Part shown: in pieces, positions 5,459 through 21,491 of the stretch
How positions within the stretch are numbered: the first letter of the stretch is position 1
How the letters are laid out: each line of letters begins with the position of its first letter
Virus record (IMG/VR): IMGVR_UViG_3300042868_003635
Location: 1-21,491 of that record
Strand: one strand, 5' to 3'
Length of the DNA: 21,491 bases
From: a virus
Notes under the pieces: model-generated
What the model was told of the DNA's origin: nothing
What the model saw: only the letters and a program-made list of their open reading frames with translations
Databases searched by the model: none
Translations under genes and position numbers: made by a program

Positions 5459-5486
5459 AGTTTATCACACTAACACGTTAGTGCAA
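5459..5486 (-). promoter_or_regulatory. predicted promoter with embedded palindrome, upstream of the adaptor/tail genes
   Basis: Read leftward: TTGCAC at 5486-5481, a 16-bp spacer, and TAAACT at 5464-5459 with an extended -10 (TGA before TAAACT). The spacer contains most of the CTAAC..GTTAG palindrome. The same TTGCAC precedes the palindrome at 7728-7745. The expected start site near 5452 falls in the 5' arm of the terminator, so this transcript would not form the hairpin. The -35 matches consensus at only 3 of 6. Confidence 0.5.
5468..5483. promoter_or_regulatory. operator-like palindrome CACTAAC-AC-GTTAGTG
   Basis: Seven-base arms flank a 2-base centre; the copy at 7728-7745 contains the same 16 bases. 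The 2-nt centre is too short for an RNA loop at full pairing, so a site for a dimeric DNA-binding protein is more likely than a hairpin. It is intergenic, between the capsid stop and its terminator. Confidence 0.7.
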
Positions 5487-5494
5487 ATAACTTT

Positions 5495-6493
5495 TTAGAC
5501 AACAACAAGAGTAGCCAAAGACTCAGGCTTCACTACTTTGTAGCCAAAAACATTCAGTGAACGGATGAAGTCACCAAAGTCGTTGGGGTTACGGACGGTT
5601 TCCATCTTCGTAATCTGCGAAGCAAACGTGATGGCCGACTTGTGACCGGCGATGATGGCGCGGCGTTTGACACCACCAGCAGCAGTGATGCTGTTCTCAG
5701 AACCATTACCCGATACCCAAGGAGCAGCGGAAGCGGCGCCTTTAGGCAACTGGTTGCTCACATAAACCGTGAAACGGTCGATGCTGCCGATTTTGCCGTT
5801 ACGAACCATGGAGGTTGGGTCACCCATGAACTGAGCCTGTGACAAGTTGGATTGCATCAACATGGCGCGGGTATAGGGGTCAAGCACCAACCAGCGACCG
5901 GCGTCAGGCACGTTCTGCTCGTCAAGCACAGAAGCCAGTTCCAGAATCTTCTGGAGAGCCAGGGCAGGTGTCAACGTGATAGGTGCAGCATCGGTACCCA
6001 AATTGTAAGAACCGCTGTTCTTGCCTGCAGTAGCACCTTTGTTAGTCGCGTCGCTACCAGCGAAGGTGTTGTAAATGACCGTAGAGTCAATCGCAATGCG
6101 CATCTGCTCAGCAGCGTCAGTACTGAACATGTCCAGCAAGTTTGGCTTGGCTTGGTACTCAAGAACATCATTGACGGTGAAGGCAAAGTATTTGCCCTTG
6201 TCAATGTTTAGGTCCAAGGTGCTTGGGGTTGGCACTTGATATGCCAAGGCCGTACCAGCAACGTAGTCAGAGACTGTAAGCGTAGGAGCCAAATTAATGG
6301 TTACCTTATCGCCCATACCGCTGATGTCGCCTTGCCAGTCGGTGTTAGCGATCTCGCCATAGACGGAAGCTGCGTAGAACTTCGCGTTCAGCTTGGCGGA
6401 CCAAACTGATGGGATAAATGTGCCGCTGTATGCGGGGGAAGTGGTGAAGTTCGTGTTACCACTAGAACCTGAAGAACTTACTGCGAATGCCAT
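5495..6493 (-). CDS. major capsid protein
   Basis: This 332-residue protein is close in size to short-tailed phage coat proteins and sits directly downstream of the scaffold. Features seen: a Ser/Gly-rich N-terminus, then SVWSAKLNAKFYAASVYGEIANTDWQGDI (about 29-57), which is the N-arm plus spine-like segment of coat proteins; YVAGTALAYQVPTPSTLDLNIDKGKYFAFTVNDVLEYQ (about 77-114); a helical AAEQMRIAIDSTVIYNTFAG; the P-domain-like ALQKILELASVLDEQNVPDAGRWLVLDPYTRAMLMQ; and a basic RRAIIAGHKSAITFASQITKMET. The order portal, scaffold, capsid is conserved in phages. A GGAG at about 8 nt supports the start. A strong terminator follows. The family call is firm; the exact HK97-fold subgroup is not resolved. 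Confidence 0.92.
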   Translation of the reverse strand: MAFAVSSSGSSGNTNFTTSPAYSGTFIPSVWSAKLNAKFYAASVYGEIANTDWQGDISGMGDKVTINLAPTLTVSDYVAGTALAYQVPTPSTLDLNIDKGKYFAFTVNDVLEYQAKPNLLDMFSTDAAEQMRIAIDSTVIYNTFAGSDATNKGATAGKNSGSYNLGTDAAPITLTPALALQKILELASVLDEQNVPDAGRWLVLDPYTRAMLMQSNLSQAQFMGDPTSMVRNGKIGSIDRFTVYVSNQLPKGAASAAPWVSGNGSENSITAAGGVKRRAIIAGHKSAITFASQITKMETVRNPNDFGDFIRSLNVFGYKVVKPESLATLVVV

Positions 6494-6533
6494 GGTGATA
6501 CTCCAAATATTTGCACCACCACGGCGACCCTAT

Positions 6534-7436
6534 CTATGTGATACGACCTTCTGCCATGGCGGCATTGATTTCAGACTCCATTTGCTGCTGCCTAGCTTCG
6601 TTGCCTCGGTACTTGCCTTGAGCTACATCTCTGTAAAACGCCGTAATAGCGCCTTGCGAAATAGTAGTCTGGGTGGGTACTTGGGCAGGTGCTGACGCAA
6701 CCGCTCGTGGAGCCACTTGTTTGTCCAGGGGGTTGACCTTCGGCGCGATCACCGGAGCAGCCAAACCTTTAAAAGCTTGGAAAATCCGTATAACTTGGCC
6801 TGCGTCTAAGTTGTCTTGAGCTACTTTCAGCGCGGATTGGCGGGGTACGCCGTACACTGGGTCTGCTTCTCCAAGCCATGCGCGAAACGCATCGTCCTCG
6901 TTTACTGCATCCCAATCCGGGACTGAGGCCTCGATTCGCGCAAAGAACTTGTCCTGCTCGCTCTGGGCCACAGCACCCGCTGTACCTTCCATTCGCTGCT
7001 CTAGCTGCTTGAACCGTTCGCCGTATGAGTCGGAAACATCGGCCAGCGTTTGCTGACTCATACGTTTCACCATCTCAACCAGGTCCGCACCAAACATCTC
7101 AACATCCTGGGGGTTGCTAGCTACCGGTTCAGGTTGCCTAGACGGCGCAGAACTCAATCGCTGCAGCTCCAGTTTGGTTTGCTCCAGCTCTTGCGAAATC
7201 TGCAAAATCTTCGCATCGCGGGACCGAATAACACCGTCTAAACTTTTGAACTTCTGTTGCCAGTCGTCCGCTGGTTTGGGTGCCGGTTCCACAACTACCT
7301 GCTCTACGGGGGCTACACCCGCATCTACTACCTGCTCTACCGCTGCTGGTTCTAAGCTGCCTGTAGGTGCATTCATTTGCTCCAAAAGGGCTTCTGCTTG
7401 TTCGAGCTGCTGCTGAACGTGGGTGGGCAATGCCAT
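6534..7436 (-). CDS. capsid scaffolding protein
   Basis: This 300-residue acidic, Gln/Ala/Glu-rich protein is encoded immediately before the capsid gene. The first 60 residues are low-complexity (EQVVVEPAPKPADD). A coiled coil follows at about 72-98 (SRDAKILQISQELEQTKLELQRL), then further helical stretches (MVKRMSQQTLADVSDSYGERFKQLEQRM) and a small basic C-terminal end (FYRDVAQGKYRGNEARQQQMESEINAAM). Such a composition and position are typical of internal scaffolds, which guide procapsid assembly through a short basic C-terminus that binds coat protein. AGGAG about 9 nt upstream supports the start. A small 4-bp GUGC/GCAC hairpin lies right next to this SD. Confidence 0.85.
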   Translation of the reverse strand: MALPTHVQQQLEQAEALLEQMNAPTGSLEPAAVEQVVDAGVAPVEQVVVEPAPKPADDWQQKFKSLDGVIRSRDAKILQISQELEQTKLELQRLSSAPSRQPEPVASNPQDVEMFGADLVEMVKRMSQQTLADVSDSYGERFKQLEQRMEGTAGAVAQSEQDKFFARIEASVPDWDAVNEDDAFRAWLGEADPVYGVPRQSALKVAQDNLDAGQVIRIFQAFKGLAAPVIAPKVNPLDKQVAPRAVASAPAQVPTQTTISQGAITAFYRDVAQGKYRGNEARQQQMESEINAAMAEGRIT

Positions 7437-7469
7437 ATCTACTTCTCCTGTGCTTTTTGCACGTCGGTC

Positions 7470-7496
7470 AAAAACCTTACAGCATCGCTGTTAAGG
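7470..7496 (-). terminator. rho-independent terminator between the 69-residue gene and scaffold
   Basis: Read leftward: CCUU-(bulged A)-ACAGC, loop GAU, GCUGU-AAGG, then UUUUU. The stem is 9 bp with one bulge. It would make the 69-residue gene largely monocistronic, with scaffold and capsid expressed by read-through or another promoter. Confidence 0.75.
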
Positions 7497-7504
7497 GGGA
7501 ACCG

Positions 7505-7714
7505 TCAGGGCTTACGCACCCTTGCCTCATCAAGTTTGGTAATGATGTTCTGGAGGGACTGTGCATACCCTTGGGCACGCCTCAGTTGCTCGACATCCAC
7601 CACCTTCATGAGGACCTCAATTTTTTGGTCAAGCTCAGCCTGCAGCCACTCTTTGAATCTAGGGTGGCCCGAGGCCATCATTTCAAACAACTGCAGTTCT
7701 TGTTTCTTGTCCAT
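7505..7714 (-). CDS. 69-residue helical protein between portal and scaffold
   Basis: This is a small charged protein predicted to be almost wholly helical (KKQELQLFEMMASGHPRFKEWLQAELDQKIEVLMKVVDVEQLRRAQGYAQSLQNIITKLDEARVRKP). Small helical proteins of this kind often lie between portal and scaffold in podovirus-like genomes, but I know no function for them. There is no SD in front of the ATG. A promoter predicted at 7723-7751 would start the mRNA only 0-4 nt before the ATG, suggesting a leaderless message. A rho-independent terminator begins 9 bases after its stop. An alternative start at Met12 also lacks an SD. Confidence 0.75.
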   Translation of the reverse strand: MDKKQELQLFEMMASGHPRFKEWLQAELDQKIEVLMKVVDVEQLRRAQGYAQSLQNIITKLDEARVRKP

Positions 7715-7722
7715 TAGCGGAA

Positions 7723-7751
7723 AATATACACTAACACGTTAGTGTGTGCAA
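7723..7751 (-). promoter_or_regulatory. predicted promoter with operator filling the -35/-10 spacer
   Basis: Read leftward: TTGCAC at 7751-7746, a 17-bp spacer, and TATATT at 7728-7723 (5 of 6 to consensus). The spacer is almost exactly the palindrome ACACTAAC..GTTAGTG. A bound dimer here would block RNA polymerase. The predicted start site lies 0-4 nt before the ATG of the 69-residue gene. Confidence 0.6.
7728..7745. promoter_or_regulatory. operator-like palindrome ACACTAAC-AC-GTTAGTGT
   Basis: This is the longest copy of the dispersed palindrome, with 8-base arms around a 2-base centre. It is intergenic, between the portal stop and the 69-residue gene, inside a predicted promoter. A separate perfect 12-bp palindrome (GTCATTAATGAC, 7762-7773) lies just beyond it. 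Confidence 0.75.
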
Positions 7752-7774
7752 GTTATAAACTGTCATTAATGACG

Positions 7775-9907
7775 TTAATTTGCAAAATTATTAGTTACTG
7801 GGGCTTGATTCATCAGTTCTTGGCCGTTTCCCGGCTCGGACGGCGCAACCTGCTGCTGATCCTGTGGGGGTAAGGCCTGACCTGCCTGTGCCAACTGAGC
7901 CTGCTGCGCCCGTTGCTTAATGACAGTAACGCTCGGAACTACTTTATCAACGTTAAGGTCTAACGCCTTGGCGGATGCCCGAAGCAATTCTGCTCGTCCG
8001 TCCATTCCAATAATCTGCATGTCAATCGGGTTAGCGGTAGCAGCCAAAAACTCGTTGCGGCGAACTTGAGCTGACTCTTTGACCGTGAGAGACAACGCAC
8101 CTCGGGCTTTAATAGAAATGTCTCCGTGGTAGTTGTACTTGTCATCATTCATAAGCTGAAACAAGTGCAGCCGGTCCACGCTTGCGCTGACCACCCGAAT
8201 ATCAATGCTGGAGACCAACTCTCGAATCTGCTTGCTGGCGTTACCAATCATCATGCTCATGCCTGACGCAGTACGCCCTGCCCCGCCGTCGCCTGGTGTG
8301 CCCGTCATGTACTTGGGAATACCGCTGTACTCGTCGGCCATCGCGGAGAACTTCTCGTACACACTCATTAGCTCACCGGAGTTACTGCCGGGCTGAAAGA
8401 ATGTGATTGGAGCTGCGCTAGAACCCATGGGGTCACTGACAGTCTGCCAAATTTTCCAAGGGTACATCTCTGTGATTTCTTCACCAGTTGCCAAGCGGTC
8501 GTTGTTCACAATCACCTGCGGACCCGATGAGATGCCCAAGTTGTTAGACAGTGCTCTTGCAGCAGAGTTGCACATATCTTGGCAGTCGGCCATTAGGTCA
8601 TAAAGAGAGTTATGCCAAAAGGCTCCGGGGGTGCGGCTATAGCCATCAGCGTAGTACGGACGACGCAGCAGCGGGTCTGGGTTGATGGTGGCTTTAATAA
8701 CCCAGCTACCAATCATCCAAGCTTCAACTTCGTACTCCTTGGCCTCGTCAGTAATTTCACCTTTATCCATGCCCCACTCGCGCAACATTTTGCCGCTTAC
8801 GCTGCCCCAGTACTGGAGCGCATCGATGAGGTCAGAGTTGACGGTCAAGTCACCGGATTGACGCCCCTCGGCTGTAGCTTTGCTAGCGTCTATCAAGAGC
8901 CACTCACGTAAGCCGCCTGTGCCGTGAGCATCAAGCACTGCACGGATTGCATCTTCGTTGTAACCTTCCACACCAATCATGGCGCTCAGTGAACCTCGGC
9001 TCAAACGGTGGCGCTCAATCAGGTACGAGTCGTTGACGTTCTTGGCCCATGGAGCTGGAAACATGTTGAACGGATCAACTCTCTCCCATTCCAGTTTCTT
9101 CTTAGTTATGCTTATCGGCTTGGTGCTGCCATCTGGCTGAGCCTGCCACTCCATAGCGGGGGCGTTACGAACAATCGGTCCTTTTAGAAACGCTGTCTTG
9201 AACACAGTTAAGTCATCGAGAAACTCGTCTAGGGCTTCCATCCAGCAGCCCTCAACCATCAAGTCCTCCAGATCACGTTCAGCACATTCGGCCTCCCGCT
9301 TAGCTGCTTCCATGATGGTGTTGTAAGCTTGCTCCTTAGCGGCAACCATCTGAGCACGGATGTCTTCGACGCTCATGGGAACCCCGCCCATCTCGGCTGC
9401 GGCAGCAAACTCATAAGCTGCCTGCATGATCCCATCTACTGTCTCGGGGGGCAGGTCGGGCTTGGGTGTCGGGTGGATCGTCCATGGTTTCTCAGTACCG
9501 GCTCCGATCAAAACGTCGGCCAGTAGTGCTTTTGCTTGGCGAGACTTTGTAGCAAACAGCATCATGTAAATCTCTGAGCCACCTTGCTTCTTAATCTGCT
9601 GCAATTTCTCTGGAGAGTATCGACCGCCGCGTGAAAAAACGGCTTCAAGCATGTCGATCTCGATCTGCAGCTTAGCCTCCTTGGCCAAAGTCCAGTGCCC
9701 GCGAATGTGAGATGCCAGCGCCTGAACGATGCCTTCTACTTGTTGCTCATTTGCGCGAGCAACGGCTGCGGCAGTCGCCTCCTCGGCAAGCAACGTGCGC
9801 AGGGGTTTAGCAGACATAATTCCGCCAATATTTAGCTGTTGTGGCTGTTGAGGGATGGTCAATCCAAGCGCTTGCATGGCGGTCCTTAGTATGTCGCGTT
9901 GCGACAT
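7775..9907 (-). CDS. portal protein
   Basis: The 710-residue length is typical of P22/T7-type portals. It forms the dodecameric ring at the capsid vertex through which DNA is packaged and released. Seen: an N-terminal helical region (TLLAEEATAAAVARANEQQVEGIVQALASHIRGHWTLAKEAKLQIEIDMLEA); KKKLEWERVDPFNMFPAPWAKNVNDSYLIERHRLSRGSL in the clip/wing region; the portal signature PYYADGYSRTPGAFWHNSLYDLMADCQDMCNSAARALSNNLG; and GIPKYMTGTPGDGGAGRTASGMSMMIGNASKQIRELV, the conserved stem/crown-proximal helix. The C-terminus is Gln/Ala/Pro-rich (QAQLAQAGQALPPQDQQQ). It is downstream of TerL with a 28-base gap that holds a CTAAC/GTTAG palindrome. No clear SD precedes the ATG, which is unusual for an essential virion gene. 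Confidence 0.93.
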   Translation of the reverse strand: MSQRDILRTAMQALGLTIPQQPQQLNIGGIMSAKPLRTLLAEEATAAAVARANEQQVEGIVQALASHIRGHWTLAKEAKLQIEIDMLEAVFSRGGRYSPEKLQQIKKQGGSEIYMMLFATKSRQAKALLADVLIGAGTEKPWTIHPTPKPDLPPETVDGIMQAAYEFAAAAEMGGVPMSVEDIRAQMVAAKEQAYNTIMEAAKREAECAERDLEDLMVEGCWMEALDEFLDDLTVFKTAFLKGPIVRNAPAMEWQAQPDGSTKPISITKKKLEWERVDPFNMFPAPWAKNVNDSYLIERHRLSRGSLSAMIGVEGYNEDAIRAVLDAHGTGGLREWLLIDASKATAEGRQSGDLTVNSDLIDALQYWGSVSGKMLREWGMDKGEITDEAKEYEVEAWMIGSWVIKATINPDPLLRRPYYADGYSRTPGAFWHNSLYDLMADCQDMCNSAARALSNNLGISSGPQVIVNNDRLATGEEITEMYPWKIWQTVSDPMGSSAAPITFFQPGSNSGELMSVYEKFSAMADEYSGIPKYMTGTPGDGGAGRTASGMSMMIGNASKQIRELVSSIDIRVVSASVDRLHLFQLMNDDKYNYHGDISIKARGALSLTVKESAQVRRNEFLAATANPIDMQIIGMDGRAELLRASAKALDLNVDKVVPSVTVIKQRAQQAQLAQAGQALPPQDQQQVAPSEPGNGQELMNQAPVTNNFAN

Positions 9908-9916
9908 GATAACTTA

Positions 9917-9930
9917 CTAACAGTTGTTAG
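9917..9930. promoter_or_regulatory. operator-like palindrome CTAACA-GT-TGTTAG
   Basis: Six-base arms; the CTAAC and GTTAG half-sites are 4 bases apart rather than 2. It fills half of the 28-base gap between the TerL stop and the portal start and ends 10 bases before the ATG, so it overlaps where an SD would lie. I found no convincing promoter with it. Confidence 0.5.
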
Positions 9931-9935
9931 CCTAT

Positions 9936-11372
9936 TTAACTGTAGGCGTAGCTATGCCTCACAATTAGCTTGGCTTTAGTGTTTCGACGGTACAAATTAC
10001 CCTCGACTTGGATGTTGTAATGCAGTGCCAAGTACTGAATGGCGTCCCCAATATGGCTCCAGTGGTTCTTTTCCACCGTGGACGCGACTAAACCGGCCGT
10101 GGTTTTCTTGTATCTGAAGCCCCATTCTAACGTGTTAGCTATGTGAGAGCAGGTAGGGTCCACTAGGAAGCCAGCAGAACCATCGATTTGACGGGTCAAA
10201 AGCCCCTCTACGGCACTAATTCGGCGTTCGGGGTCGTTTGTTGACGCTCTAACCACCTGATAACCACGCTGCATGATGGCTTGAGCGATAGTCTTCTCAT
10301 CCACCTGAGAGCGGGTAAAACAGGCCGGATCGACCACAAATACGATGTTTTCGGCCTTAAAAGCGGGAAATTTGCTCCTAAGGAGGGGAATTAGCAGCCG
10401 ATCTAGGTAAGTTTCCACGCCCATCGTCTCGCCCTCGGGCACATAGGCCTCACCCAAAATGTTAACTCGGCCTCTCATATCCATTTGACCGATGGCTGCA
10501 GCCGCCGTTAGCCCGTTGTCCATGCCCACAATCAGCGGATTTTGGCTCTGAGGGATAGCGTTAAGCGGTTTAGGACTAACATGGAACGACTTTTTAAACG
10601 TTCCTCGGTACACGGGCTGGCCTTGGTCGCCCGCGCCGTACTCATTCTTCAGGTAAACATTCACCCAGTCCTCGGACTTACCGGCAATCAGGTTGTCGTA
10701 GTAGTCGTCCGCTAGGTTATCTTTGTTTTCCCGCTCTGGATTGAGGGAGCCGTCCTCAAGAATAGCCGGAGGTTGCATAAAAATCTGCGAATTGGCGGGT
10801 GGCTCAGTCATCAACTTGTGCCAAAACCCACCTACAGGAGGCGGATTGGTGGAGCAAATCACACCGGCGTAGGTAACGCCGCCCGCTAGTCGGTTGGGAA
10901 ATCGGTTAACCCGTCCCTGCAGGCCAGAGAAAACTTCGGGGTCCACTTCTCGGGCTTCCTCCACCCAAGCGGCACTGGCTTCAAGAGACAGCAGCCGCCT
11001 TACGTCATCGGGCGTGTCCGCTGCCATCATGAAAAACTCGGAGTGGACTGTGGTGTCGTCGCCAAGGCGGAACTTCATCTCAAAAACGTTGTCCGTTAAG
11101 CGCCACCTTCCCATCGTGCCGCCCGTTAAGGTCTCAAACCACTGCGTTATCAGCGGGGCCACGGTGGCCTTGAGCTGCTGCATGGTGTTGCGCAGGATGA
11201 TGAACTTGGTTCGGCGTGTACCGTTAAATGGTTTTTGCTTGATGGCGCGGTCTAGCAAGTCGAATAGCGCCACTGTGGACTTACCCCCTCCCACCGGCCC
11301 CATGACGACCTTGATAAAGGAGCGGCTGTCCAGAAAGTCCTGCCCTACCGGAGTGGGGGTAAAACTTAACAT
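9936..11372 (-). CDS. terL: terminase large subunit (ATPase/nuclease)
   Basis: This 478-residue protein is the packaging motor that translocates DNA into the procapsid and cuts the concatemer. The Walker A loop is at 25-33 (GPVGGGKST). The Walker B strand with its catalytic glutamates is at about 131-139 (ASAAWVEE). The coupling motif is at 174-178 (STNPP). The C-terminal RNase H-like nuclease shows three acidic residues in the expected contexts: D285 (IVGMDNG), D348 (VFVVDPA) and D443 (HIGDAIQYL). Its start overlaps the preceding 115-residue gene by 7 bases; AGG abuts the ATG, with a second AGGA about 15 nt upstream. A copy of the CTAAC/GTTAG palindrome lies inside the gene at 10127-10138. 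Confidence 0.96.
   Translation of the reverse strand: MLSFTPTPVGQDFLDSRSFIKVVMGPVGGGKSTVALFDLLDRAIKQKPFNGTRRTKFIILRNTMQQLKATVAPLITQWFETLTGGTMGRWRLTDNVFEMKFRLGDDTTVHSEFFMMAADTPDDVRRLLSLEASAAWVEEAREVDPEVFSGLQGRVNRFPNRLAGGVTYAGVICSTNPPPVGGFWHKLMTEPPANSQIFMQPPAILEDGSLNPERENKDNLADDYYDNLIAGKSEDWVNVYLKNEYGAGDQGQPVYRGTFKKSFHVSPKPLNAIPQSQNPLIVGMDNGLTAAAAIGQMDMRGRVNILGEAYVPEGETMGVETYLDRLLIPLLRSKFPAFKAENIVFVVDPACFTRSQVDEKTIAQAIMQRGYQVVRASTNDPERRISAVEGLLTRQIDGSAGFLVDPTCSHIANTLEWGFRYKKTTAGLVASTVEKNHWSHIGDAIQYLALHYNIQVEGNLYRRNTKAKLIVRHSYAYS
10127..10138. promoter_or_regulatory. CTAAC-GT-GTTAG palindrome inside terL
   Basis: This exact copy of the dispersed palindrome lies within coding sequence near the 3' end of terL (codons for A-N-T-L). 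It may be a functional intragenic site, as with stoperators, or coincidental. Confidence 0.4.
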
Positions 11373-11713: not shown

Positions 11714-11718
11714 AGGGG

Positions 11719-11871
11719 TTACTTCTTTTTCATGAACGCAGGGAACTTGGCTTGCTTCTTGTCCATGGCTGAATCTTTCATCATCTTGCCGTCGGGCATC
11801 TTGTGCACGCCTTTTGACTCTTTGCCCTTAGCGGGTTTCTCGAACATTGGGAACTTGGGTTTGTTAGCCAT
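11719..11871 (-). CDS. small Lys-rich protein (50 aa), first gene of the leftward operon
   Basis: This short open frame encodes MANKPKFPMFEKPAKGKE... and ends KFPAFMKKK. About a third of residues are Lys or Arg, with two K-F-P-x-F segments (6-10 and 42-46) at opposite ends and a KMPDGKMMKDSAM centre. Small proteins with a MPDGxMMxxSAM motif occur near the terminase in other phages; the function is unknown to me. The start is well supported: AAGGA lies about 7 nt upstream. It is the first gene after the predicted leftward promoter at 11901-11929 and ends 5 bases before the TerS-position gene. The basic charge would suit a DNA- or RNA-binding or virion-internal role, but this is speculative. 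Confidence 0.75.
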   Translation of the reverse strand: MANKPKFPMFEKPAKGKESKGVHKMPDGKMMKDSAMDKKQAKFPAFMKKK

Positions 11872-11900
11872 GATATTTCCTTGGTTGTGTTAGCTTGAAT

Positions 11901-11929
11901 AGCCTAGCATGTTAGTGCGTTAACGTCAA
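11901..11929 (-). promoter_or_regulatory. predicted leftward promoter for the packaging/virion genes
   Basis: Read leftward: TTGACG (11929-11924, 5 of 6), a 17-bp spacer and TAGGCT (11906-11901, 3 of 6) with an extended -10 (TGC before it). The start site would be about 24-30 bases upstream of the ATG of the 50-residue gene, leaving room for its SD. A near-perfect CTAAC-AT-GCTAG palindrome overlaps the -10. Confidence 0.6.
11904..11915. promoter_or_regulatory. operator-like palindrome CTAGC-AT-GTTAG (one mismatch)
   Basis: It differs from the dispersed CTAAC-N2-GTTAG site at one base, and the mismatch falls where the site overlaps the -10 box of the predicted leftward promoter. A dimer bound here would block the main virion-gene promoter. 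Confidence 0.5.
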
Positions 11930-12195: not shown

Positions 12196-12209
12196 GCTAA
12201 CGCGTTAGC
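12196..12209. promoter_or_regulatory. perfect palindrome GCTAAC-GC-GTTAGC
   Basis: This is a 14-bp fully symmetric copy of the dispersed palindrome, in the non-coding region 69 bases before the boxA. A different inverted repeat (TACCGG-CAA-CCGGTA, 12211-12225) starts two bases after it, so two dimeric sites may lie side by side. Confidence 0.6.
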
Positions 12210-12277: not shown

Positions 12278-12290
12278 TGCTCTTTAAAAA
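12278..12290 (+). promoter_or_regulatory. rRNA-type boxA antitermination element
   Basis: TGCTCTTTAAAAA contains the exact TGCTCTTTA boxA of proteobacterial rRNA leaders, which binds NusB-NusE (S10) and makes RNA polymerase resistant to Rho. It lies about 400 nt upstream of the 172-residue gene in an untranslated leader with many hairpins, the context where it would be useful. In lambda-type nut sites a boxB hairpin follows boxA; here the first hairpin (CATGC/GCATG, 12314-12333) follows after about 24 nt. No N-like protein is recognised in the window. Confidence 0.6.
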
Positions 12291-12313
12291 TTCGAATCGA
12301 TCGATGTTGCTTT

Positions 12314-13522: not shown

Positions 13523-13763
13523 AATGTTGACCTGTAACTAATCTAAAAACCAACAAATGTTGAGTTGTTACTAATCTAAGATCAACTAGTTAACATTCTG
13601 CGAGGCTTCACGCCCTCTTCTAGGTTTTAGATTACTTAGACTTGAACATTTCTTATTGTTTTAACTAATAAGGATTTCGTTCGTTCGCACTCAAAACGCA
13701 CTAACACGTGTTAGATTATGTTAGCATGTATACACCTAACACCCAATCCTTGGTTTTAGATTA
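13523..13763. repeat. five-copy TAATCTAA/TTAGATTA repeat array
   Basis: TAATCTAA occurs at 13539-13546 and 13572-13579; its reverse complement TTAGATTA occurs at 13627-13634, 13711-13718 and 13756-13763. The first two lie in a 24-bp direct repeat (AATGTTGA..TGT.ACTAATCTAA, 13523-13546 and 13556-13579) with 33-bp period, about three helical turns. The third and fifth share GGTTTTAGATTA. Chance expectation for an 8-mer on both strands in 225 bp is below 0.01 with equal bases, though AT richness raises it. Confidence 0.6.
13701..13714. promoter_or_regulatory. operator-like palindrome CTAAC-ACGT-GTTAG upstream of the RHH gene
   Basis: This is a 14-bp perfect palindrome, 67 bases before the ATG of the ribbon-helix-helix gene. 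Further half-sites follow: GTTAG at 13720-13724 and CTAAC at 13736-13740. A weak -10 (TATGTT, 13717-13722) lies just after it, so it may lie in the promoter of the RHH gene and serve autoregulation. Confidence 0.55.
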
Positions 13764-13781: not shown

Positions 13782-14345
13782 ATGAGCAATAGTCCCCCAA
13801 GAATGCGGACAATCTCCGCCTCCCTTCCCTACGATCAAGTGTCATTAATTACCTCAATGGCATTCGAGCGCCGTATTACTGTGAGCCGCTTTATACGCGA
13901 GGCTATAGAGGCCAAGCTTGATGGGTGTGCCGATCATGACCCTGTACATGACAAGACCCTGCCTTCGCCTAAGGTGTTAGCTGTGACTCAGATGGTCGAG
14001 CGCGTCATGCTCAGATGCGGCCAAGGTGAAGCACTAACCGATATCAAGGCACTTGATGGCGTGATTGCCGCACTGATTAAGTTCAAGCCCGAGTTCCAAG
14101 AAGCCGCCATGTTGGACTACTCCAAGGCTCGCGACCATCAGAGGCTTATCACCTCATGCCGCTCCAAGCTGATGCACACCAAGGTCAGAGCTGGACTGTT
14201 CGTGCCGCAGAGGCACTTAGATGCAGACGCAAGGCCACCACTGCCAGGCTTAGCCACGACGCAAGGTCCTACAACATTACCCGCCTCCGCTGACAAGGTG
14301 GAGCTCATCGACCCCGGCATGAGCCTAGAAGATTTGATTGGATGA
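13782..14345 (+). CDS. ribbon-helix-helix DNA-binding protein, candidate regulator
   Basis: This 187-residue protein has an Arc/CopG-like N-terminus: a short strand (RTISASLP, 9-16), helix A (YDQVSLITSMAFERR, 17-31), a turn and helix B (TVSRFIREAIEAKL, 33-46). That is the usual ribbon-helix-helix spacing; RHH dimers place their paired strand in the major groove of short repeated or palindromic operators. Residues 60-140 form a helical domain I do not recognise (VLAVTQMVERVMLRCGQGEALTDIKALDGVIAALIKF), and the tail is Pro/Ala-rich and acidic at the end. It is the first gene after the AT-rich repeat region. A CTAAC-ACGT-GTTAG palindrome and five TTAGATTA-type repeats lie upstream, so autoregulation is plausible. 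The SD is weak. Confidence 0.8.
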   Translation: MSNSPPRMRTISASLPYDQVSLITSMAFERRITVSRFIREAIEAKLDGCADHDPVHDKTLPSPKVLAVTQMVERVMLRCGQGEALTDIKALDGVIAALIKFKPEFQEAAMLDYSKARDHQRLITSCRSKLMHTKVRAGLFVPQRHLDADARPPLPGLATTQGPTTLPASADKVELIDPGMSLEDLIG

Positions 14346-15043: not shown

Positions 15044-15055
15044 CTAACCTGTTAG
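15044..15055. promoter_or_regulatory. operator-like palindrome CTAAC-CT-GTTAG
   Basis: This exact copy lies in the 107-base gap between the 162- and 706-residue genes. Overlapping pairings (CGCTA/TAGCG, GCAC/GTGC) followed by CCTTTT could alternatively form a weak terminator. A second stem, CTCTGC-ccaaaca-GCAGAG (15077-15095), lies in the leader of the next gene. Confidence 0.5.
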
Positions 15056-15120: not shown

Positions 15121-17241
15121 ATGACACGCAAACAAGCCCTTAGCGGCAAGATCGAGTCCGAGGAAGCCTTTAATCAGGCTATGCGAGGCTTCAACACCGG
15201 CACAGGCAATAGCTGGTGGAGGAGCACTACCCTCAACAATAGCGATGGAAACAGCGTCAACTGTCATCCTTGGTGGCAACAACGCGAGGTGCTACGCATC
15301 GAGGACGGCGTTTATACAACTACGCAGGTGCTGGACAGTATCAACCAGAGCTTCGCCGCTCAGTACGTGGTGCACATCAGCATAGAAGACCCCACACAAA
15401 TAGCGTACACCCGCTCCACGGAAGATGGATGCCGAGACAAGCGCACCCGAACAAGCCTAGGCAAGTTCCTGCGGCAGACGTTTATCCTGCTCAAGGATAG
15501 CCAAATTCAGCAGTTTGAGGCTGACCACCGAGCCGAGCTGACTGGCACATTCGAGCTGGCCACCACGGCAAGCGCCATCCGCCACACCTACCAAAACATG
15601 GAAGGCGACTCAGGCTGTATGCGCTACGGACCGGAGCACTTCAACATCACCAACGACCGACACCCGAGCGAGGCCTACGAGGCTCCTGGCATGGGCGTGG
15701 CGTACACCAAGGACTCACGAGGCCGCATCAAGAGCCGAGCCGTGGTCTGGGTAAACCCAAGCAATGCAGATGACAAGCGGTACGTGCGGATTTATGGTGA
15801 TCCCATACTGGGCAAGATTCTCATCCGCTCAGGCTACAAGCAGAGCAGCCTTAAGGGGGCAACGCTTGCGATTATTCCGAGGATCACACGTGAGCGCGCC
15901 GGTCACCAGAATGAGTATGTGATGCCTTACCTAGATGGTCCGGGCGGCAATCAGGGTAGCGGGGATGGCGCCTATGTCATGCTCGATAAGAATGTGATGA
16001 GGATCATTAGCCAAGAAGAGGCGCGGGAGATCAACGATAGCGTGGGCGTTGGGTTCACTGCTCAGGCCAAGACCACATCAGCTTACGTCACCTTGATGCC
16101 TGTACCTGCGGCCATCTTCACCAGTGAGAAGACGGGGCTTACCTACGAGGGCTACACCTACAAGCAAGTGCGTTACTGGGATGCGGCGTCCACGAGCACG
16201 AAGGTATGCGAGAAGTCCGAAACATCTCCGAATGACTGTGAGTATTACGGTGTCGTGCAAGGAAGCATGACTCGTGTTTATGCGGACTCGGACGACACCC
16301 CGACCTTTCGATGTGAGATTAGCGGGATGCGTGGCCGATGGATTGACACGTTTGAGAATCGTGAACATTGCCATATGAGACTGCTGTCAGAAGCCTACTA
16401 TGAGCCGAACACTTGGGGTAACGAGGGTGTCACCATGAGTAATGGTACGGGTCGATTCTTTATAGCCGATGCAGTGCAGATGCTGCCAGAGAACGGTGAT
16501 TCTTACTTCATTCACAAGTCGAAAGTTGCAGAGTTTCGCAAGCTTGGTTACATCAACGCTAGCCCCTTCAACGGCATGAAGATTCTTATGCACAGAGCAC
16601 GCCCTACCTTGGCGCGAACTGATGGTGGCTCGGTGTTTGACACGGCGATGCATGCAAGCAAGTTCGTCGAGTGCGATGGCACGTGGCACGCTAAGTCCTC
16701 GGTTCACCAAGGTGTCGAGTTCGGCGTTCATTACTGGTACGTAGCACAGGACGAGCCGTTGAGCCTAGCGCGGTCACTTGAGATGTTCCGTCAGAACGAC
16801 CCAGTGCAGAGTGCAGAGCGTGCCATGGTAGCCCTTGAGCCAAGTGCAAGCATCGAGACTCTTAACCTGATGGTGATGCTTGTTCAGAATACGGCCATGC
16901 GGATGCTACGTCAGTATGGACACGGCCAGTGGGCGGTTGGTACGAACGACCGAGGCGACTCAGTGCTGATCGGCAGATCGAACATGAGCTGGACTGATTA
17001 CGTTGGCGGTGCGCATCTCATCAAGAGCCTTGACTGCAACGATGCAGATGGCCGCAACATCCTAGAGCGTGACTACGACACATCTGGCAAGCGTATGCAA
17101 GCTAGGTACTACGACACCGTCAAGCCTTGGGTTACTGGCTACTGCGACACATTGCTGGGAATGATCCAGCAAAAAGAAATGGAAGCTGCCGGACAGCAGC
17201 GCCTTACATCGGTGGACGAGTTGTCCACTACAACCGCGTAA
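15121..17241 (+). CDS. large early-region phage protein, unknown function, Cys/His-rich centre
   Basis: This 706-residue protein resembles large hypothetical proteins of other podovirus-like phages. Recognisable blocks: HISIEDPTQIAYTRS (85-99); SGCMRYGPEHFN with HPSEAYEAPGMGVAYTKDSRGRIKSRAVVW (164-210), the usual C-M-R-Y ... HP-x-AY ... VAY-x-D-x-G-x-I-x-RA order; RYVRIYGD (220-227); and EYVMPYLDG (265-273). A central Cys/His cluster (C363, C373, C398, C417, H418) resembles the partly decayed zinc-ribbon-like repeats of relatives. The C-terminal 300 residues are not recognised. The location among early genes argues against a virion protein. It has no strong SD; its leader shares 18 identical bases around the ATG with the next gene. 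The biochemical role is unknown. Confidence 0.85.
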   Translation: MTRKQALSGKIESEEAFNQAMRGFNTGTGNSWWRSTTLNNSDGNSVNCHPWWQQREVLRIEDGVYTTTQVLDSINQSFAAQYVVHISIEDPTQIAYTRSTEDGCRDKRTRTSLGKFLRQTFILLKDSQIQQFEADHRAELTGTFELATTASAIRHTYQNMEGDSGCMRYGPEHFNITNDRHPSEAYEAPGMGVAYTKDSRGRIKSRAVVWVNPSNADDKRYVRIYGDPILGKILIRSGYKQSSLKGATLAIIPRITRERAGHQNEYVMPYLDGPGGNQGSGDGAYVMLDKNVMRIISQEEAREINDSVGVGFTAQAKTTSAYVTLMPVPAAIFTSEKTGLTYEGYTYKQVRYWDAASTSTKVCEKSETSPNDCEYYGVVQGSMTRVYADSDDTPTFRCEISGMRGRWIDTFENREHCHMRLLSEAYYEPNTWGNEGVTMSNGTGRFFIADAVQMLPENGDSYFIHKSKVAEFRKLGYINASPFNGMKILMHRARPTLARTDGGSVFDTAMHASKFVECDGTWHAKSSVHQGVEFGVHYWYVAQDEPLSLARSLEMFRQNDPVQSAERAMVALEPSASIETLNLMVMLVQNTAMRMLRQYGHGQWAVGTNDRGDSVLIGRSNMSWTDYVGGAHLIKSLDCNDADGRNILERDYDTSGKRMQARYYDTVKPWVTGYCDTLLGMIQQKEMEAAGQQRLTSVDELSTTTA

Positions 17242-17259
17242 CTAACTGAGACCTACAAC

Positions 17260-18576
17260 ATGACTACAACATTAACACCCGAGATGTTTGCCGCTCCCGC
17301 AGTAATCCCAAAGGCAGGGCCAAGCCTTCTTGGACCGCAGCACGAGATTCCTAAGGCGGTAGACCAGCTACTTGCAGACATCCTCTTCTGGCCTCGCCCT
17401 CATAAGTCAGCAGCCGAGTCGCTTTTCCGCAAGTGGTTAGATGAGAAGATCATCGCCTTCATGGGACCCAACGCAACGACTGCGGTCTACGCCGAAGGGG
17501 TGCGGTACGTTCACATACCGACCTCCGCTAACAAGCCAGCCACTACTCTCTTCTCGTGTCACATCGATACAGTCGATGCCGCCGCCGAGGGACTGCTCGT
17601 AGGTATGCCCGTGGATAAGAAAGCGAAGAAGGGGATCGCCCCAATGCTGACCCAAAAGCTCAAGTCGCTCAACTACGACCCAATCCTCGGCATCATTGCT
17701 CTGGATAAGGACTCCCCTGTTGGTACTTGTCTTGGGGCTGACGATGGAGTCGGCGTGTGGATGATGCTTCGCATGATCGAGGCTCAAGTACCTGGGGGCT
17801 ACATGTTCCACACTGGTGAGGAGGTCGGATGTGTTGGCTCCAAAGCCATGCTGGACAAGCACCGATCACTGCTCAGGCAGTTCGAGGTAGCAGTTGCCTT
17901 TGATCGTCCCCGAGACAACGAGGTCATCACCCATCAACGTGGACAGGAGTGCTGTAGCGATAAGTTTGCTGTAGCCCTTGCGGCCAGACTCAGTGAGAAC
18001 GGTATGGACTACGAGCCCAGTAACAGGGGTGTGTATACCGACACCGCAACGTATCGAGGTGTGATCGCCGAGTGCACTAACCTTGGAGTCGGCTACGAGT
18101 CACAACACGGCAAGTCAGAGACACAAGACTATGCCCATGCAGCAGCACTGCTCAAGGCGCTGATCGCAATCAATTGGGATAGCCTGCCCGTAGATCGTGA
18201 TCCTCTCAAGGCTGACCCCGTGCCGGTATATAGCCCAAGTACCTACAGGAATCCATACAGAGGCGGCGGCTACGGAGGCGGCACCTACGGAGGCGGATTA
18301 TTTGAGGACGACTATGAGAATTTTGGTCACCACAAAGCATCCAACGTAGCCCCGATAGGTAAGAAGCACAAGAAGCAAACCACGCCAGAGTACGTCCCCT
18401 TCCTTAGCGTGTTCGATGACCTGAATGAGTTAGGTGTCGATGACCTAGAGTTGTGGTGCATGGACGCACCGGATCAAGCAGCGCAAGGGGTAGCCGCACT
18501 GATACTTGAGATTGGTCGGCTGCGCTCTGACTGCGCGATTCTTCGCAAGATGAGTCGAATGGGAGAAGAGTTTTGA
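17260..18576 (+). CDS. M20/M28-like zinc metallopeptidase
   Basis: This 438-residue protein shows the di-zinc peptidase order of clan MH (PepT/M20/M28/M42): HIDTV with H101 and D103; GADDGVGV with bridging D161; TGEEVGCVGS with the catalytic E187 and zinc ligand E188; VAFDRP with D215; and a NLGVGYESQHGKSE segment with H283. All expected ligands are present, so it is probably active. After about 310 residues there is a Tyr/Gly linker (about 329-346), a basic patch (KKHKKQ, 368-373) and a C-terminal helical domain of about 60 residues that is not part of the family. It starts 18 bases after the previous stop with an identical leader. Such enzymes cut peptides or related amides; the substrate is unknown. 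It is unusual in a phage early region. Confidence 0.85.
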   Translation: MTTTLTPEMFAAPAVIPKAGPSLLGPQHEIPKAVDQLLADILFWPRPHKSAAESLFRKWLDEKIIAFMGPNATTAVYAEGVRYVHIPTSANKPATTLFSCHIDTVDAAAEGLLVGMPVDKKAKKGIAPMLTQKLKSLNYDPILGIIALDKDSPVGTCLGADDGVGVWMMLRMIEAQVPGGYMFHTGEEVGCVGSKAMLDKHRSLLRQFEVAVAFDRPRDNEVITHQRGQECCSDKFAVALAARLSENGMDYEPSNRGVYTDTATYRGVIAECTNLGVGYESQHGKSETQDYAHAAALLKALIAINWDSLPVDRDPLKADPVPVYSPSTYRNPYRGGGYGGGTYGGGLFEDDYENFGHHKASNVAPIGKKHKKQTTPEYVPFLSVFDDLNELGVDDLELWCMDAPDQAAQGVAALILEIGRLRSDCAILRKMSRMGEEF

Positions 18577-18624
18577 ACGCGTATCTGACTAGGAAATTTA
18601 ACGGCTTTACAACGAAAGAATCAA

Positions 18625-18999
18625 ATGGATAACACTGCATTCACTACGGCCTACAACGAGTATCGTAACGGGGCCAACGTTCTCATCCGCCATCCACTGG
18701 TACGTAACTTCGCCTTCTCAGATGGCGTGCGTGACTGCGCAGACGCAGGGTGCCACTGGCTCATCGACATCTTTGCTACTGAGCTACCCGCCATCCTGAA
18801 ATCCAAGGGTGAGTACATGGGCTGTGTGTCATCCGTAGTCAAGGACGGCAAGGCCGTGCTGACCATGACCGGCAGCGGAGATGTTGTCTTGTGGACTCGC
18901 AAGATCGACTACACCGACATGCCGCAAGGCAGTTGGATGTTCTATGTATGCGACAACGGGGACAACACGTTCACCTGCATACTACCTAGGGAGTATTGA
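18625..18999 (+). CDS. DUF6876 family protein
   Basis: This 124-residue protein carries the sequence pattern I associate with DUF6876: RHPLVRNFAFSDGVRDCADAGCHWLIDIFAT (22-52) with the typical Y/F-x-DGV-x-x-x-A-x-x-x-x-x-WL-x-D, then a beta stretch (CVSSVVKDGKAVLTMTGSGDVVLWTRKIDYTD) and a C-terminal ILPREY close to the family's LPSEY end. DUF6876 proteins are found in bacteria, plasmids and phages with no known function. The gene begins 48 bases after the peptidase gene; GAAAG is a weak SD. It is followed one base later by the next small gene. Confidence 0.85.
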   Translation: MDNTAFTTAYNEYRNGANVLIRHPLVRNFAFSDGVRDCADAGCHWLIDIFATELPAILKSKGEYMGCVSSVVKDGKAVLTMTGSGDVVLWTRKIDYTDMPQGSWMFYVCDNGDNTFTCILPREY

Positions 19000-19000
19000 G

Positions 19001-19186
19001 ATGACACCCAAGAAACTATACGAACTACTCGACAAGGCAAAGGTTGAATTCAAGATTGTGGAAAGCTTTGAAGGGTTGCGTACCCTTAGCTTTGTTGTGG
19101 ATGAAGACGATAAAGAGCATCACCCCGACTGCCCCGCAGTTGATGGGTTCGGGTGTTGTTGCGACGAACTTGGAGAACAACAATGA
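19001..19186 (+). CDS. 61-residue protein with Cys-rich end, unknown function
   Basis: The start at 19001 (MTPKKLYELLDKAKVEF...) is chosen over a longer upstream frame because AGGGAG lies about 9 nt before it and the previous gene stops at 18999. The protein has an N-terminal helix and a C-terminal HPDCPAVDGFGCCCDELGE block (41-59), with four Cys and His that may bind a metal. Similar short proteins with HPDCPAVDGFGC occur in other phages and plasmids; the function is unknown. The stop overlaps the next start (ATGA). Confidence 0.75.
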   Translation: MTPKKLYELLDKAKVEFKIVESFEGLRTLSFVVDEDDKEHHPDCPAVDGFGCCCDELGEQQ

Positions 19187-19389
19187 CATACGAAGTACAA
19201 ACCCTCTTTGTCTACGAAACATGGGAGAGCGTAGATTCGGTCAACGGCGAGCCCGTTCGGTTTAACACCCGTGCCGAGGCCGATGCAGACCTGAAGAAGC
19301 ATCTGCTCGAGTTAAAAGATGCAGTTGCGCTTGGCCACGTTACAGACTACGACCCCAAGGCCTACCGCATAAGGAAAATCGCATCATGA
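19183..19389 (+). CDS. 68-residue conserved small protein
   Basis: The start at 19183 (MTYEVQTLFVYETWESV...) gives an ATGA overlap with the previous stop, and GGAG lies about 8 nt upstream; a longer frame upstream is less likely. The sequence, with YEVQT-x-W-x-V and F-x-TRAEADADLKKHL-x-x-x-x-A-x-x-G-x-x-x-x-YDPKAYRI, is the pattern of a small protein common in phages and mobile elements, where an N-terminal strand and a helix make up a compact fold. The function is unknown. The stop overlaps the following gene by ATGA. Confidence 0.75.
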   Translation: MTYEVQTLFVYETWESVDSVNGEPVRFNTRAEADADLKKHLLELKDAVALGHVTDYDPKAYRIRKIAS

Positions 19390-19700
19390 CCTTCAAGGCC
19401 TACAACCACAACAACACATTACTGGGCGAGTTCAGCACCCATTGTGCAGCGCAGAAAGAAGCTAGGCTCTATACCGAGATGAGCGGCAACGCTGCCTATG
19501 TTTCGGGTGAGCCAAAAGAAAGTGTTAGTAAGATAGCTAACACTGATACACTAACATCGTTAGTTAAAGACCTACAACATTCGGCAGACAGTCAGAACAA
19601 GCGGATGGCTCGCATTGAGACCCGCCTAAGCAGGCTAATGCTGCACGTAGGGATGAAGACTGATGGTCGCAACGACTTCATAACGGAGAAAAAGCCATGA
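19386..19700 (+). CDS. 104-residue protein with C-terminal coiled coil
   Basis: This protein begins MTFKAYNHNNTLLGEF, has a middle segment rich in Ser/Ala and a C-terminal helical stretch (SLVKDLQHSADSQNKRMARIETRLSRLMLHVG, about 58-89) with heptad-like spacing, suggesting oligomerisation. I do not recognise it. It is joined to both neighbours by ATGA overlaps. The DNA contains a cluster of CTAAC/GTTAG half-sites (19521-19564) and a 13-base match to the leader of the 706- and 438-residue genes (AGACCTACAACAT, 19568-19580), which is unusual inside a coding sequence. Confidence 0.75.
   Translation: MTFKAYNHNNTLLGEFSTHCAAQKEARLYTEMSGNAAYVSGEPKESVSKIANTDTLTSLVKDLQHSADSQNKRMARIETRLSRLMLHVGMKTDGRNDFITEKKP
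19521..19564. promoter_or_regulatory. cluster of GTTAG/CTAAC sites inside a gene
   Basis: AGTGTTAG (19521-19528) and CTAACACT (19537-19544) form an 8-bp inverted repeat with an 8-base centre, and ACTAAC-ATC-GTTAGT (19550-19564) follows. Three elements occur within 44 bases of the 104-residue gene. This may be an intragenic operator. Confidence 0.45.
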
Positions 19701-19786
19701 CATTCTTCCGCCTTTATTACTTCTATCGCCGCTTCGGCATGACTTTCATTTACGCCTTTCGCAGGGCATGGAGACATAGCGCATGA
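19697..19786 (+). CDS. 29-residue basic aromatic peptide
   Basis: This frame encodes MTFFRLYYFYRRFGMTFIYAFRRAWRHSA. It is rich in Phe, Tyr and Arg and could lie at or across the membrane. It is supported mainly by context: it overlaps the previous stop by ATGA and its own stop overlaps the next start by ATGA, matching the chain of translationally coupled genes in this region. GGAG lies about 10 nt upstream (cggagaaaaagcc). The function is unknown. Confidence 0.6.
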   Translation: MTFFRLYYFYRRFGMTFIYAFRRAWRHSA

Positions 19787-20130
19787 GCCAAACCACAACT
19801 GCAATTTACCTGTTCATAGGCCTGAGCTCAGAGCGCGAGAGTACCCCACTAAGGCCGTGGCCCCATTCCAATGCAGGTTTCATGGGGGTAGTAGACAAGT
19901 GTGATGACATGGCCGTGCTTGTTGAGGCTTGGTACGCCAAGGCCGAGGAGTTACACCCAGACTTCGACTGCCCTGGTGTCTTTGACTACGAGATCACCGA
20001 AGAGATGGGGGGTTGGTTGTACAACAACTTCAACTGCACAAACGCTGAGTTTGTTGCTGAGCTTGATCTTCTCTTTGCTAGGTGGATAACTGGGTCGGTT
20101 ACCTACTGTGAGCAATTGGAGGCAAGATGA
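19783..20130 (+). CDS. 115-residue protein of unknown function
   Basis: I do not recognise this protein. It begins with a short hydrophobic strand (TAIYLFIGL), has an acidic central helix (DDMAVLVEAWYAKAEEL) and two aromatic/acidic segments (FDYEITEEMGGWLYNNF and FVAELDLLFARW). It is probably soluble and acidic. ATGA overlaps join it to the 29-residue peptide gene and the next gene, so it belongs to the coupled early cluster. Confidence 0.75.
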   Translation: MSQTTTAIYLFIGLSSERESTPLRPWPHSNAGFMGVVDKCDDMAVLVEAWYAKAEELHPDFDCPGVFDYEITEEMGGWLYNNFNCTNAEFVAELDLLFARWITGSVTYCEQLEAR

Positions 20131-20357
20131 ACACGACCATTAGCGGCATACCCTGCCAAGCTCACGTGGTGAGCTACCAGTCCGGTAGCCCCGCCCAGTT
20201 AGGTGGGGCGGCTGACTACTCTTATCCCGAAGAGTACCCAGAGATTGAGTTCTCTATCCACGACAGGCGCGGCCGTCTCGCTCCATGGCTTCGGTCAAAG
20301 ATGACAGATGCCGACTATTCCAGAATCGAAGCCGAACTACTTGAAGGATTAACATGA
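20127..20357 (+). CDS. 76-residue conserved phage protein
   Basis: The protein starts NTTISGIPCQAHVVSYQSGSPAQLGG and continues with EYPEIEFSIHDRRGRLAPWLRSKMTDADYSRIEAEL. The order I-x-GIPC-x-x-x-V-x-SY, then F-x-I-x-D/N-RRGR-x-x-PWL, is seen in small proteins of other phages and prophages with no assigned function. It likely has an N-terminal beta part and a C-terminal helix. SD GGAGG lies about 5 nt before the ATG, the best in the cluster. ATGA overlaps occur on both sides. Confidence 0.75.
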   Translation: MNTTISGIPCQAHVVSYQSGSPAQLGGAADYSYPEEYPEIEFSIHDRRGRLAPWLRSKMTDADYSRIEAELLEGLT

Positions 20358-20629
20358 AGTCGTTGCAGAAATACTTAGACAGAGAAAGAACGTCTGTCCA
20401 AGATATCAATGGTAGGTGGGCGCTTATAGGTCCATGTAGGTTTGAAATAAATACAGCACAGGGTAGACAAAAAGTTGCTGATTCGATTGACCTCCATTTA
20501 AGTCCAGAGAATCTCAGCTGTGATGGCGAGCTACCGATACGTGAGATCAATGCAAGGTATAAATATTTGATTGCTGCTGCAGCCGATCTGCGCAAGCTTG
20601 ACTCAACAGTCACGTTCTCGGAGATATGA
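20354..20629 (+). CDS. 91-residue protein of unknown function
   Basis: This protein is charged throughout, with segments QKYLDRERTSVQDINGRWALIGPCRFEINTAQGRQKVADSIDLHL and a C-terminal helix REINARYKYLIAAAADLRKLDS. I do not recognise it. The base composition around it (AT-richer, e.g. gaaataaatacagca) differs somewhat from its neighbours, which may hint at a different source. The start overlaps the preceding stop by ATGA, and AAGGA lies about 7 nt upstream. Confidence 0.7.
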   Translation: MKSLQKYLDRERTSVQDINGRWALIGPCRFEINTAQGRQKVADSIDLHLSPENLSCDGELPIREINARYKYLIAAAADLRKLDSTVTFSEI

Positions 20630-20630
20630 A

Positions 20631-20804
20631 ATGAGTTTTGCAACACACCAAATTGCCATGCCTCGCAGCTCTATCAACGGTCAGCCTTTTAAGTTGTGTC
20701 ACCTATGTGAAGAAAAGCGTGCCCCCGAAGGCGGCATTCAAACGTCATCACACAGGTGGTACTGTGCGGTTTGTTGGATAGACAAGATGAAAGCCATGCG
20801 ATGA
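20631..20804 (+). CDS. 57-residue zinc-finger protein
   Basis: The start at 20631 is chosen because GGAG lies 7 nt before it and the previous gene stops at 20629. The protein carries two CxxC pairs, C23-x2-C26 and C45-x2-C48, with an 18-residue spacer, a treble-clef or zinc-ribbon-like layout. The rest is short and basic. Such proteins are common in phage early regions, where some bind host polymerase or DNA; the target is not known here. The stop overlaps the next start by ATGA. Confidence 0.75.
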   Translation: MSFATHQIAMPRSSINGQPFKLCHLCEEKRAPEGGIQTSSHRWYCAVCWIDKMKAMR

Positions 20805-21052
20805 ACTCACACCACCAAAGAATCAGAGACGTTTTGACTGGCACTGACGGACTGACCGCTAAGCAGATTGAGATAGCTCTGCAAATTGACACAAGGGTTG
20901 TGCGCAAGTCGCTACAAACAATGGTTGATGTTTATGCGGACCGCTGGACTGGCCCGTACAGAGGCCAATGGGTTGCTGTCTACTGCGCTGTCGAAGTGCC
21001 CGCCGATTGCCCGCACCCTACTAAGGAAAGTAAATGGACATCATCACACTAG
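20801..21052 (+). CDS. small winged-helix-like DNA-binding protein
   Basis: This 83-residue protein begins at 20801, overlapping the previous stop by ATGA. Residues 5-45 fit a winged helix-turn-helix: HQRIRDVLTGTDGLTAKQIEIALQIDTRVVRKSLQTMVD, with TAKQIEIALQIDTRVVRKSLQ as the helix-turn-helix. The rest (DRWTGPYRGQWVAVYCAVEVPADCPHP) could be the wing and a tail. Similar small proteins occur beside phage DNA polymerase genes. It may regulate the replication genes; this is an inference. Its 3' end overlaps the DNA polymerase start by 19 bases. Confidence 0.7.
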   Translation: MNSHHQRIRDVLTGTDGLTAKQIEIALQIDTRVVRKSLQTMVDVYADRWTGPYRGQWVAVYCAVEVPADCPHPTKESKWTSSH

Positions 21053-21491
21053 ATTTCGAATCCTACTGGGCAAGCGACTATTCACTGACTAAGCTCAGCC
21101 CGCTTGAGTACGTCATGGGCGACAGGTTCGAGACTATCTCCTGTTCAATCAAGGTAAACGCGGGAGAGACTAACGTGTTATTTGGCGATGCCGATATTCG
21201 CCGAGCCTTCAAGTCACTCAACGCACAGATCAATAACGGCGCTCTACTTGGCCACAACATGCTTGGGTTTGACGCTTACATTGCGGCCTACAGGTTCGGC
21301 CTTACCCCGCGCATGTGGATGTGCACCGCAGCCATGGCTCGTCCCTTGCACGCAAAGACCTGCGGCGTCTCGCTTGCCAAGCTGGTTGAGCATTACAACT
21401 TAGGCGTGAAGAACAACGCTGTGCTTCTAGCAACAAAGGGCAAGTACTTGGCCGACTTCACCGAGGAGGAGCTGGAGCACATGCGGACCTA
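21034..21491 (+). CDS. family A DNA polymerase, N-terminal exonuclease part (runs off right edge)
   Basis: Only the first 152 codons are present. The 3'-5' exonuclease ExoI motif is at LDFES (D7, E9) and the ExoII motif at GHNMLGFDAYIAAYRFG (N75, D80), both intact. The start MDIITLDFESYW and the SLTKLSPLEYVMGDRFE segment are typical of phage DNA polymerase I-like proteins. AAGGA about 8 nt upstream supports the start. It should replicate the phage genome. The polymerase domain lies outside the window. Confidence 0.9.
   Translation, partial: MDIITLDFESYWASDYSLTKLSPLEYVMGDRFETISCSIKVNAGETNVLFGDADIRRAFKSLNAQINNGALLGHNMLGFDAYIAAYRFGLTPRMWMCTAAMARPLHAKTCGVSLAKLVEHYNLGVKNNAVLLATKGKYLADFTEEELEHMRT
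21170..21180. promoter_or_regulatory. degenerate CTAAC-GT-GTTA(t) site in the polymerase gene
   Basis: It matches the dispersed palindrome except for the last base. It lies within coding sequence (T-N-V-L), so its function is uncertain. Confidence 0.25.

Follow-up and report, generated by a model that had tools for sequence, protein, structure and literature searches.

A dispersed palindrome in a viral genome

The window, by which we mean the whole 21,491-bp stretch analyzed here (positions 1 to 21,491 of virus record IMGVR_UViG_3300042868_003635), encodes a podovirus-like capsid protein, portal, and terminase. Scattered among these and other genes are copies of an inverted repeat, CTAAC-N2..4-GTTAG (Table 1). 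A first-pass annotation of the same DNA had claimed eight exact copies, in large excess over expectation, and both the number and the excess hold: dinucleotide shuffles of the window contain a mean of 0.03 exact copies and a maximum of one. The sites are real, although the positions first given for them were off by 0–3 bases. Both of the one-mismatch copies reported earlier are present, and there is a third at position 13969. As had also been noted, the extended form CACTAAC..GTTAGTG occurs twice (5470 and 7731), and six of the eight exact copies are intergenic, vs 11.6% of the window sequence (binomial, 5.5e-5).

The repeat is unlikely to act as RNA. We rejected a hairpin or terminator, which needs a loop of at least 3 nt and a T tract, because the 2-bp spacer in most copies forms no loop and no T tract follows. 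Our literature searches returned no paper describing this motif. As a separate observation, the long non-coding divergent region between the late and early genes contains a boxA-like sequence, TGCTCTTTAAAAATT (window 12278–12292), resembling the antitermination element of betaproteobacterial rRNA operons.

Table 1. Palindromes and associated features of the window
Feature	Position	Strand	Context
Intrinsic terminator stem-loop (−16.7 kcal/mol) with T tract	5427..5458	−	5' arm overlaps inferred downstream promoter start
−10-like TAAACT, preceded by TG-n (extended −10)	5459..5464	−	5 bp from palindrome 5470..5481
Palindrome CTAACACGTTAG	5470..5481	none	13 bp 3' of capsid (MCP) stop, 54 bp 5' of next gene
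Major capsid protein	5495..6493	−	Query for relatives
Sigma-70-like promoter TTGCAC-N17-TATATT	7723..7751	−	Palindrome within spacer; read from sequence
Palindrome CTAACACGTTAG	7731..7742	none	Between portal stop and 69-aa gene
Palindrome CTAACAGTTGTTAG, spacing 4	9917..9930	none	Between terminase stop and portal start
Palindrome CTAACGTGTTAG	10127..10138	none	Within 3' part of terminase gene
One-mismatch copy CTAGCATGTTAG	11904..11915	none	
Palindrome CTAACGCGTTAG	12197..12208	none	Divergent region, late/early operons
Palindrome CTAACACGTGTTAG, spacing 4	13701..13714	none	67 bp 5' of RHH gene
RHH (CopG/Arc-like) protein, 187 aa	13782..14345	+	Profile match weak, below cut-off
Palindrome CTAACCTGTTAG	15044..15055	none	65 bp 5' of 706-aa gene
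Stretch shared with contig L263 at 100%	16640..21491	+	4852 bp, to the end of the window
Palindrome CTAACATCGTTAG, spacing 3	19551..19563	none	Within predicted 104-aa gene
One-mismatch copy CTAACGTGTTAT	21170..21181	none	

Extent and lifestyle of the phage

The end of the window is shared with contig L263, of which 8350 bp are in turn matched at 100% by contig G029 (L240/L241). The L263/G029 contigs contribute five further exact palindromes and a gene for an XRE protein (L241:9528-9809:-), which lies outside the window. With no site counted twice, the three joined contigs span about 58.7 kb and contain 13 exact copies, vs 0–1 copies for scrambled arms of equal composition; the excess thus extends into the rest of the same phage, a check that the first-pass annotation had proposed. 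The phage encodes a tyrosine integrase (PF00589, 5e-15) and is therefore probably temperate. No close relative was found among cultured phages, and a search of 399 genomes of the order found no prophage relative except G026 itself, a 63-kb phage contig binned in a 3.2-Mb Oxalobacteraceae metagenome-assembled genome (MAG).

The early operons of several contigs contain a pair of genes for amidoligase-like and class-II glutamine amidotransferase-like proteins (L089 3966-6853; L100 1-3010; L142 12105-14692); in place of this pair, the window encodes a 706-aa protein for which no match was found, together with an M28-type peptidase.

Conservation of the sites among related phages

Relatives were fetched by their capsid protein, as contigs that are fragments, and their genes were called with a custom codon-usage script. 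The motif recurs three to nine times in related phages with capsids 61–88% identical, and it is present in 15 of 25 whole relative contigs (up to nine copies per contig). In several of these relatives, no inverted pair ranks above CTAAC/GTTAG, which mostly has 2-bp spacing and an R-Y spacer. A broader pattern scan of viral_contigs with CTAACNNGTTAGTGTG returned 36 loci, many of them single chance hits.

The sites keep their positions at orthologous slots, which is the second check that the first-pass annotation had proposed. In relatives, the capsid slot lies between 4 bp before and 23 bp after the capsid stop codon; further sites are found 44–59 bp upstream of the 300-aa gene, on either side of the portal gene, and upstream of the replication operon. 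As a separate observation, a small AGTC-loop-GACT hairpin directly precedes the ribosome-binding site of the 318-aa gene (e.g., L089 15221-15277), with compensatory changes among relatives.

Overlap of the palindromes with promoter elements

Promoter elements were sought around 76 non-redundant spacing-2 sites from 30 contigs, with only the flanks shuffled as a control. A sigma-70-like score of at least 8 was reached at 47 of the 76 sites, vs 19.1 expected (maximum, 26). The distance from the palindrome to a TAnnnT hexamer peaks at 5 bp with a spread of 1–6 bp, and at 5-bp spacing 10 of 14 such hexamers are extended −10s. The distance to the −10 varies by several bp even within one orthologous slot. 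The −35 hexamer is poorly conserved: good −35s are a minority, with TTGACA directly abutting the palindrome in G012, and most late sites have an extended −10 without a good −35. Sites also lie on early and replication promoters, among them promoters whose TTGnnn and TATAAT are near consensus. When the window was scanned for plain consensus promoters, the one at 7731 alone came up, as an overlapping TGCACA-N16-TATATT, and there was no overall excess.

At the capsid slot, the −10 is immediately followed by an intrinsic terminator that is separate from the palindrome. In a transcript from the inferred start at this slot, the stem is weakened from −16.7 to −5.6 kcal/mol. Because a transcript starting within the 5' arm would lose most of the stem, we infer that the terminator stops capsid transcripts and spares the next gene's own transcript.

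The copy number, the slots kept in relatives, and the overlap with promoter elements together uphold the proposal of a genome-wide, palindromic, promoter-associated set of sites, and the palindromes are very probably operators located at promoters.

Candidate readers of the palindrome

The protein that best tracks the palindrome is a Cro/C2-like XRE helix-turn-helix protein of 85–93 aa, encoded between an SSB-like gene and primase. In a scan of the neighbors of SSB-like genes, an XRE gene was found in eight of eight contigs with at least three palindromes and in 0 of at least 25 other contigs (Fisher, 2e-6, with kinship ignored; the correlation is one of clades). A protein-family profile blind to function agrees: XRE is the only family present in all eight palindrome-bearing contigs and none of five palindrome-less ones. 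HTH_3 matches 10 of 11 members (best, 8e-9), and the predicted model (pLDDT 95) has a helix-turn-helix fold that superposes on P22 C2 at 1.2 Å over 47 residues; a conserved Leu-Pro linker leads to a C-terminal helix. The promoter of the XRE operon itself bears a palindrome in G012, G013, G019, and the phage of the window, about 30–40 bp before the first gene; in the last of these, the promoter reads TTGAAG-N17-TATAAT.

The correlation has exceptions. G023 and G060 encode XRE homologues yet lack the motif, and the recognition helix of the G019 protein is unlike those of the others while the motif is the same. We considered altered XRE specificity in G023 and G060, and rejected it since the enriched palindromes there are local early-region clusters rather than genome-wide sets. 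A family of 190–219 aa adjoining DNA polymerase also tracks GTTAG use; it was discarded as an alternative because it was not found in G019. Judged by these sequence comparisons, the XRE protein has a slightly better than even chance of being the reader.

Local repeats of other kinds were seen in some of these phages. G023 has six copies of a CTGAC-N6-GTCAG palindrome (L248 6937-13336), five of them between early genes and several extended to GCACAACCTGAC-N6-GTCAGGTTGTGC; in G041, seven TGTGTATACACA copies form a cluster in the early region (L258 3400-5268); and a single intergenic region of G060 contains four iteron-like TGTTAARCSRKTTAACA repeats (L251 9792-10174).

The first-pass annotation had nominated the RHH protein of the window, which has a palindrome upstream of its gene and syntenic counterparts in G001, G002, and G019. 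Proteins of this class can, as dimers, recognize short half-sites arranged in several ways. However, the distribution of RHH proteins does not follow that of the motif: the motif-less G051 has them too, as do G006 and G035, which have an asymmetric motif, whereas none was found in G026, which has a related one. Moreover, the likely reading strand of the protein differs among the window, G002, G001, and G019, while the motif is the same. We therefore regard the RHH protein as an improbable reader.

A host regulator could explain why the motif is constant while phage proteins diverge. Yet whether a phage has the motif varies among relatives and follows phage genes, and the variant motif of G026, GTAAGCAYGTTAGC, is confined to the phage contig: the MAG has seven matches with no more than one mismatch, all of them on that contig, and 23 with no more than two, of which 12 are there; CTAACNNGTTAG is absent from the whole MAG. 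A host reader is thus very improbable, and the confinement of the sister variant to the phage contig indicates that the reader is probably encoded by the phage.

The half-site in sister phages

Sister phages without the XRE gene still enrich one half of the palindrome. In G004 (L144-L147), G006 (L148-L150), and G035 (L254-L256), GTTAG occurs 5–8 times per kb between genes and 0.7–1.0 times per kb within genes, compared with about 0.9 per kb between genes in control phages. Here, it is part of an asymmetric intergenic motif, GTTAGNWNNT, which lacks a second arm and whose position +9 is T in 60 of 79 sites. The orientation of these sites (same:opposite) is 7:7, 8:5, and 5:15, and oriented stoperators like those of mycobacteriophage L5 were rejected for the sisters because there is no consistent orientation. 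In G026 (L140-L143), GTAAGCAYGTTAGC is a period-8 tandem of the half-site.

Because XRE-less sisters enrich GTTAG, the half-site is, by this distribution, older than its pairing with XRE in a palindrome. An integrase is encoded by 10 of 12 GTTAG-using phages and by none of four others, an association that fits a function in lysogeny. It is somewhat less likely than not that the operator network changed geometry by lineage, so that about a dozen promoters per genome were rewired at once as the reader changed. The geometries would then be inverted pairs with XRE, a tandem in G026, and single asymmetric sites in G004, G006, and G035.

Possible modes of action

The reading that we prefer, and rate at about even odds, is that the palindromes are the operators of one phage-encoded XRE regulator that acts, mainly by repression, on sigma-70-type promoters of a ~59-kb phage. 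An XRE dimer would read the CTAAC and GTTAG of the palindrome CTAACRYGTTAG with one half-site per monomer, and the Leu-Pro linker could tolerate a spacing of 2 or 4. From a position within the −35/−10 spacer or on top of the −10, it would obstruct RNA polymerase at promoters of the early, late, and replication genes, including that of its own operon. The lambda and P22 repressors work in much this way at OR1; here, the sites would number about 13. The P22 C2, 434, and lambda repressors share with the candidate the helix-turn-helix fold, an operator in the spacer, and a palindrome on the promoter of their own operon; the difference is that here there would be about 13 single operators genome-wide and not a tandem cluster at one switch.

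On balance, we favor repression over activation, because the register of the operator, within the spacer or on the −10 itself, is variable, because the operon of the candidate reader is included, and because the family carries integrases. The variable distance to the −10 suits steric repression better than activation. Two findings point the other way: a poorly conserved −35 is expected of activated promoters, and it is unusual for a lysogeny repressor to have its gene within a replication operon.

In phage P1, the inverted repeat of the late promoters sits near the missing −35. The main rival to repression is a phage activator that, like Lpa of P1, would switch on scattered late promoters by binding within the spacer and standing in for the −35 that they lack. 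Lpa binds a 9-bp inverted repeat at each of the 11 late promoters of P1 (PMC10695390); here too, dispersed late sites have an inverted repeat upstream of the −10, most of them with an extended −10 and without a good −35, and the center of the palindrome would fall near −23 where the −10 is 5 bp away. Unlike in P1, however, sites are also found at early and replication operons, where some promoters have TTGACA or TTGnnn −35s and TATAAT, and the spacing to the −10 varies by several bp even at one orthologous slot. We consider such an activator unlikely, although it is the strongest of the alternatives.

The first-pass annotation had likened the sites to L5 stoperators, roadblocks that halt elongation along the genome in a lysogen. 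The scatter is comparable: like those of the temperate L5 and its Cluster A relatives, the sites number more than a dozen, are related, lie in short intergenic gaps, and drift between relatives (PMC6550527, PMC9283540), and the phage here, probably temperate, has an integrase. The rest of the comparison fails, since an L5 stoperator is an asymmetric 13-mer whose orientation follows transcription (PMC9283540) and whose reader is a monomer of about 180 aa, whereas the sites here are palindromic, have no orientation, and mostly overlap promoter elements; even the asymmetric sister motif lacks a strong orientation bias. Roadblocks are accordingly an improbable explanation, well behind an activator.

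Two further systems resemble the repressor network that we favor. KorA and KorB of RK2 co-ordinate one plasmid replicon through short perfect palindromes at many promoters; that arrangement is shared, but the sequences are different and the host is a plasmid. The second comparison is with C1 of P1 and other multi-operator phage repressors. The operators of P1 C1 are asymmetric, whereas the site here is a short perfect palindrome and its candidate reader an 85–93 aa XRE protein in the replication operon. Like the operators of temperate P1, the probable operators here are many, dispersed over one phage genome, and overlap sigma-70 promoters; those of C1 have been mapped (PMC8201110).

Implications

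For a group of uncultured podoviruses, the palindromes amount to a compact promoter-operator code for which a candidate reader can be named, and they allow promoters to be located from the sequence. Should the shift in geometry be true, these phages would be a natural series for studying how a dozen operators and their reader change together, which would bear on how immunity specificity evolves.
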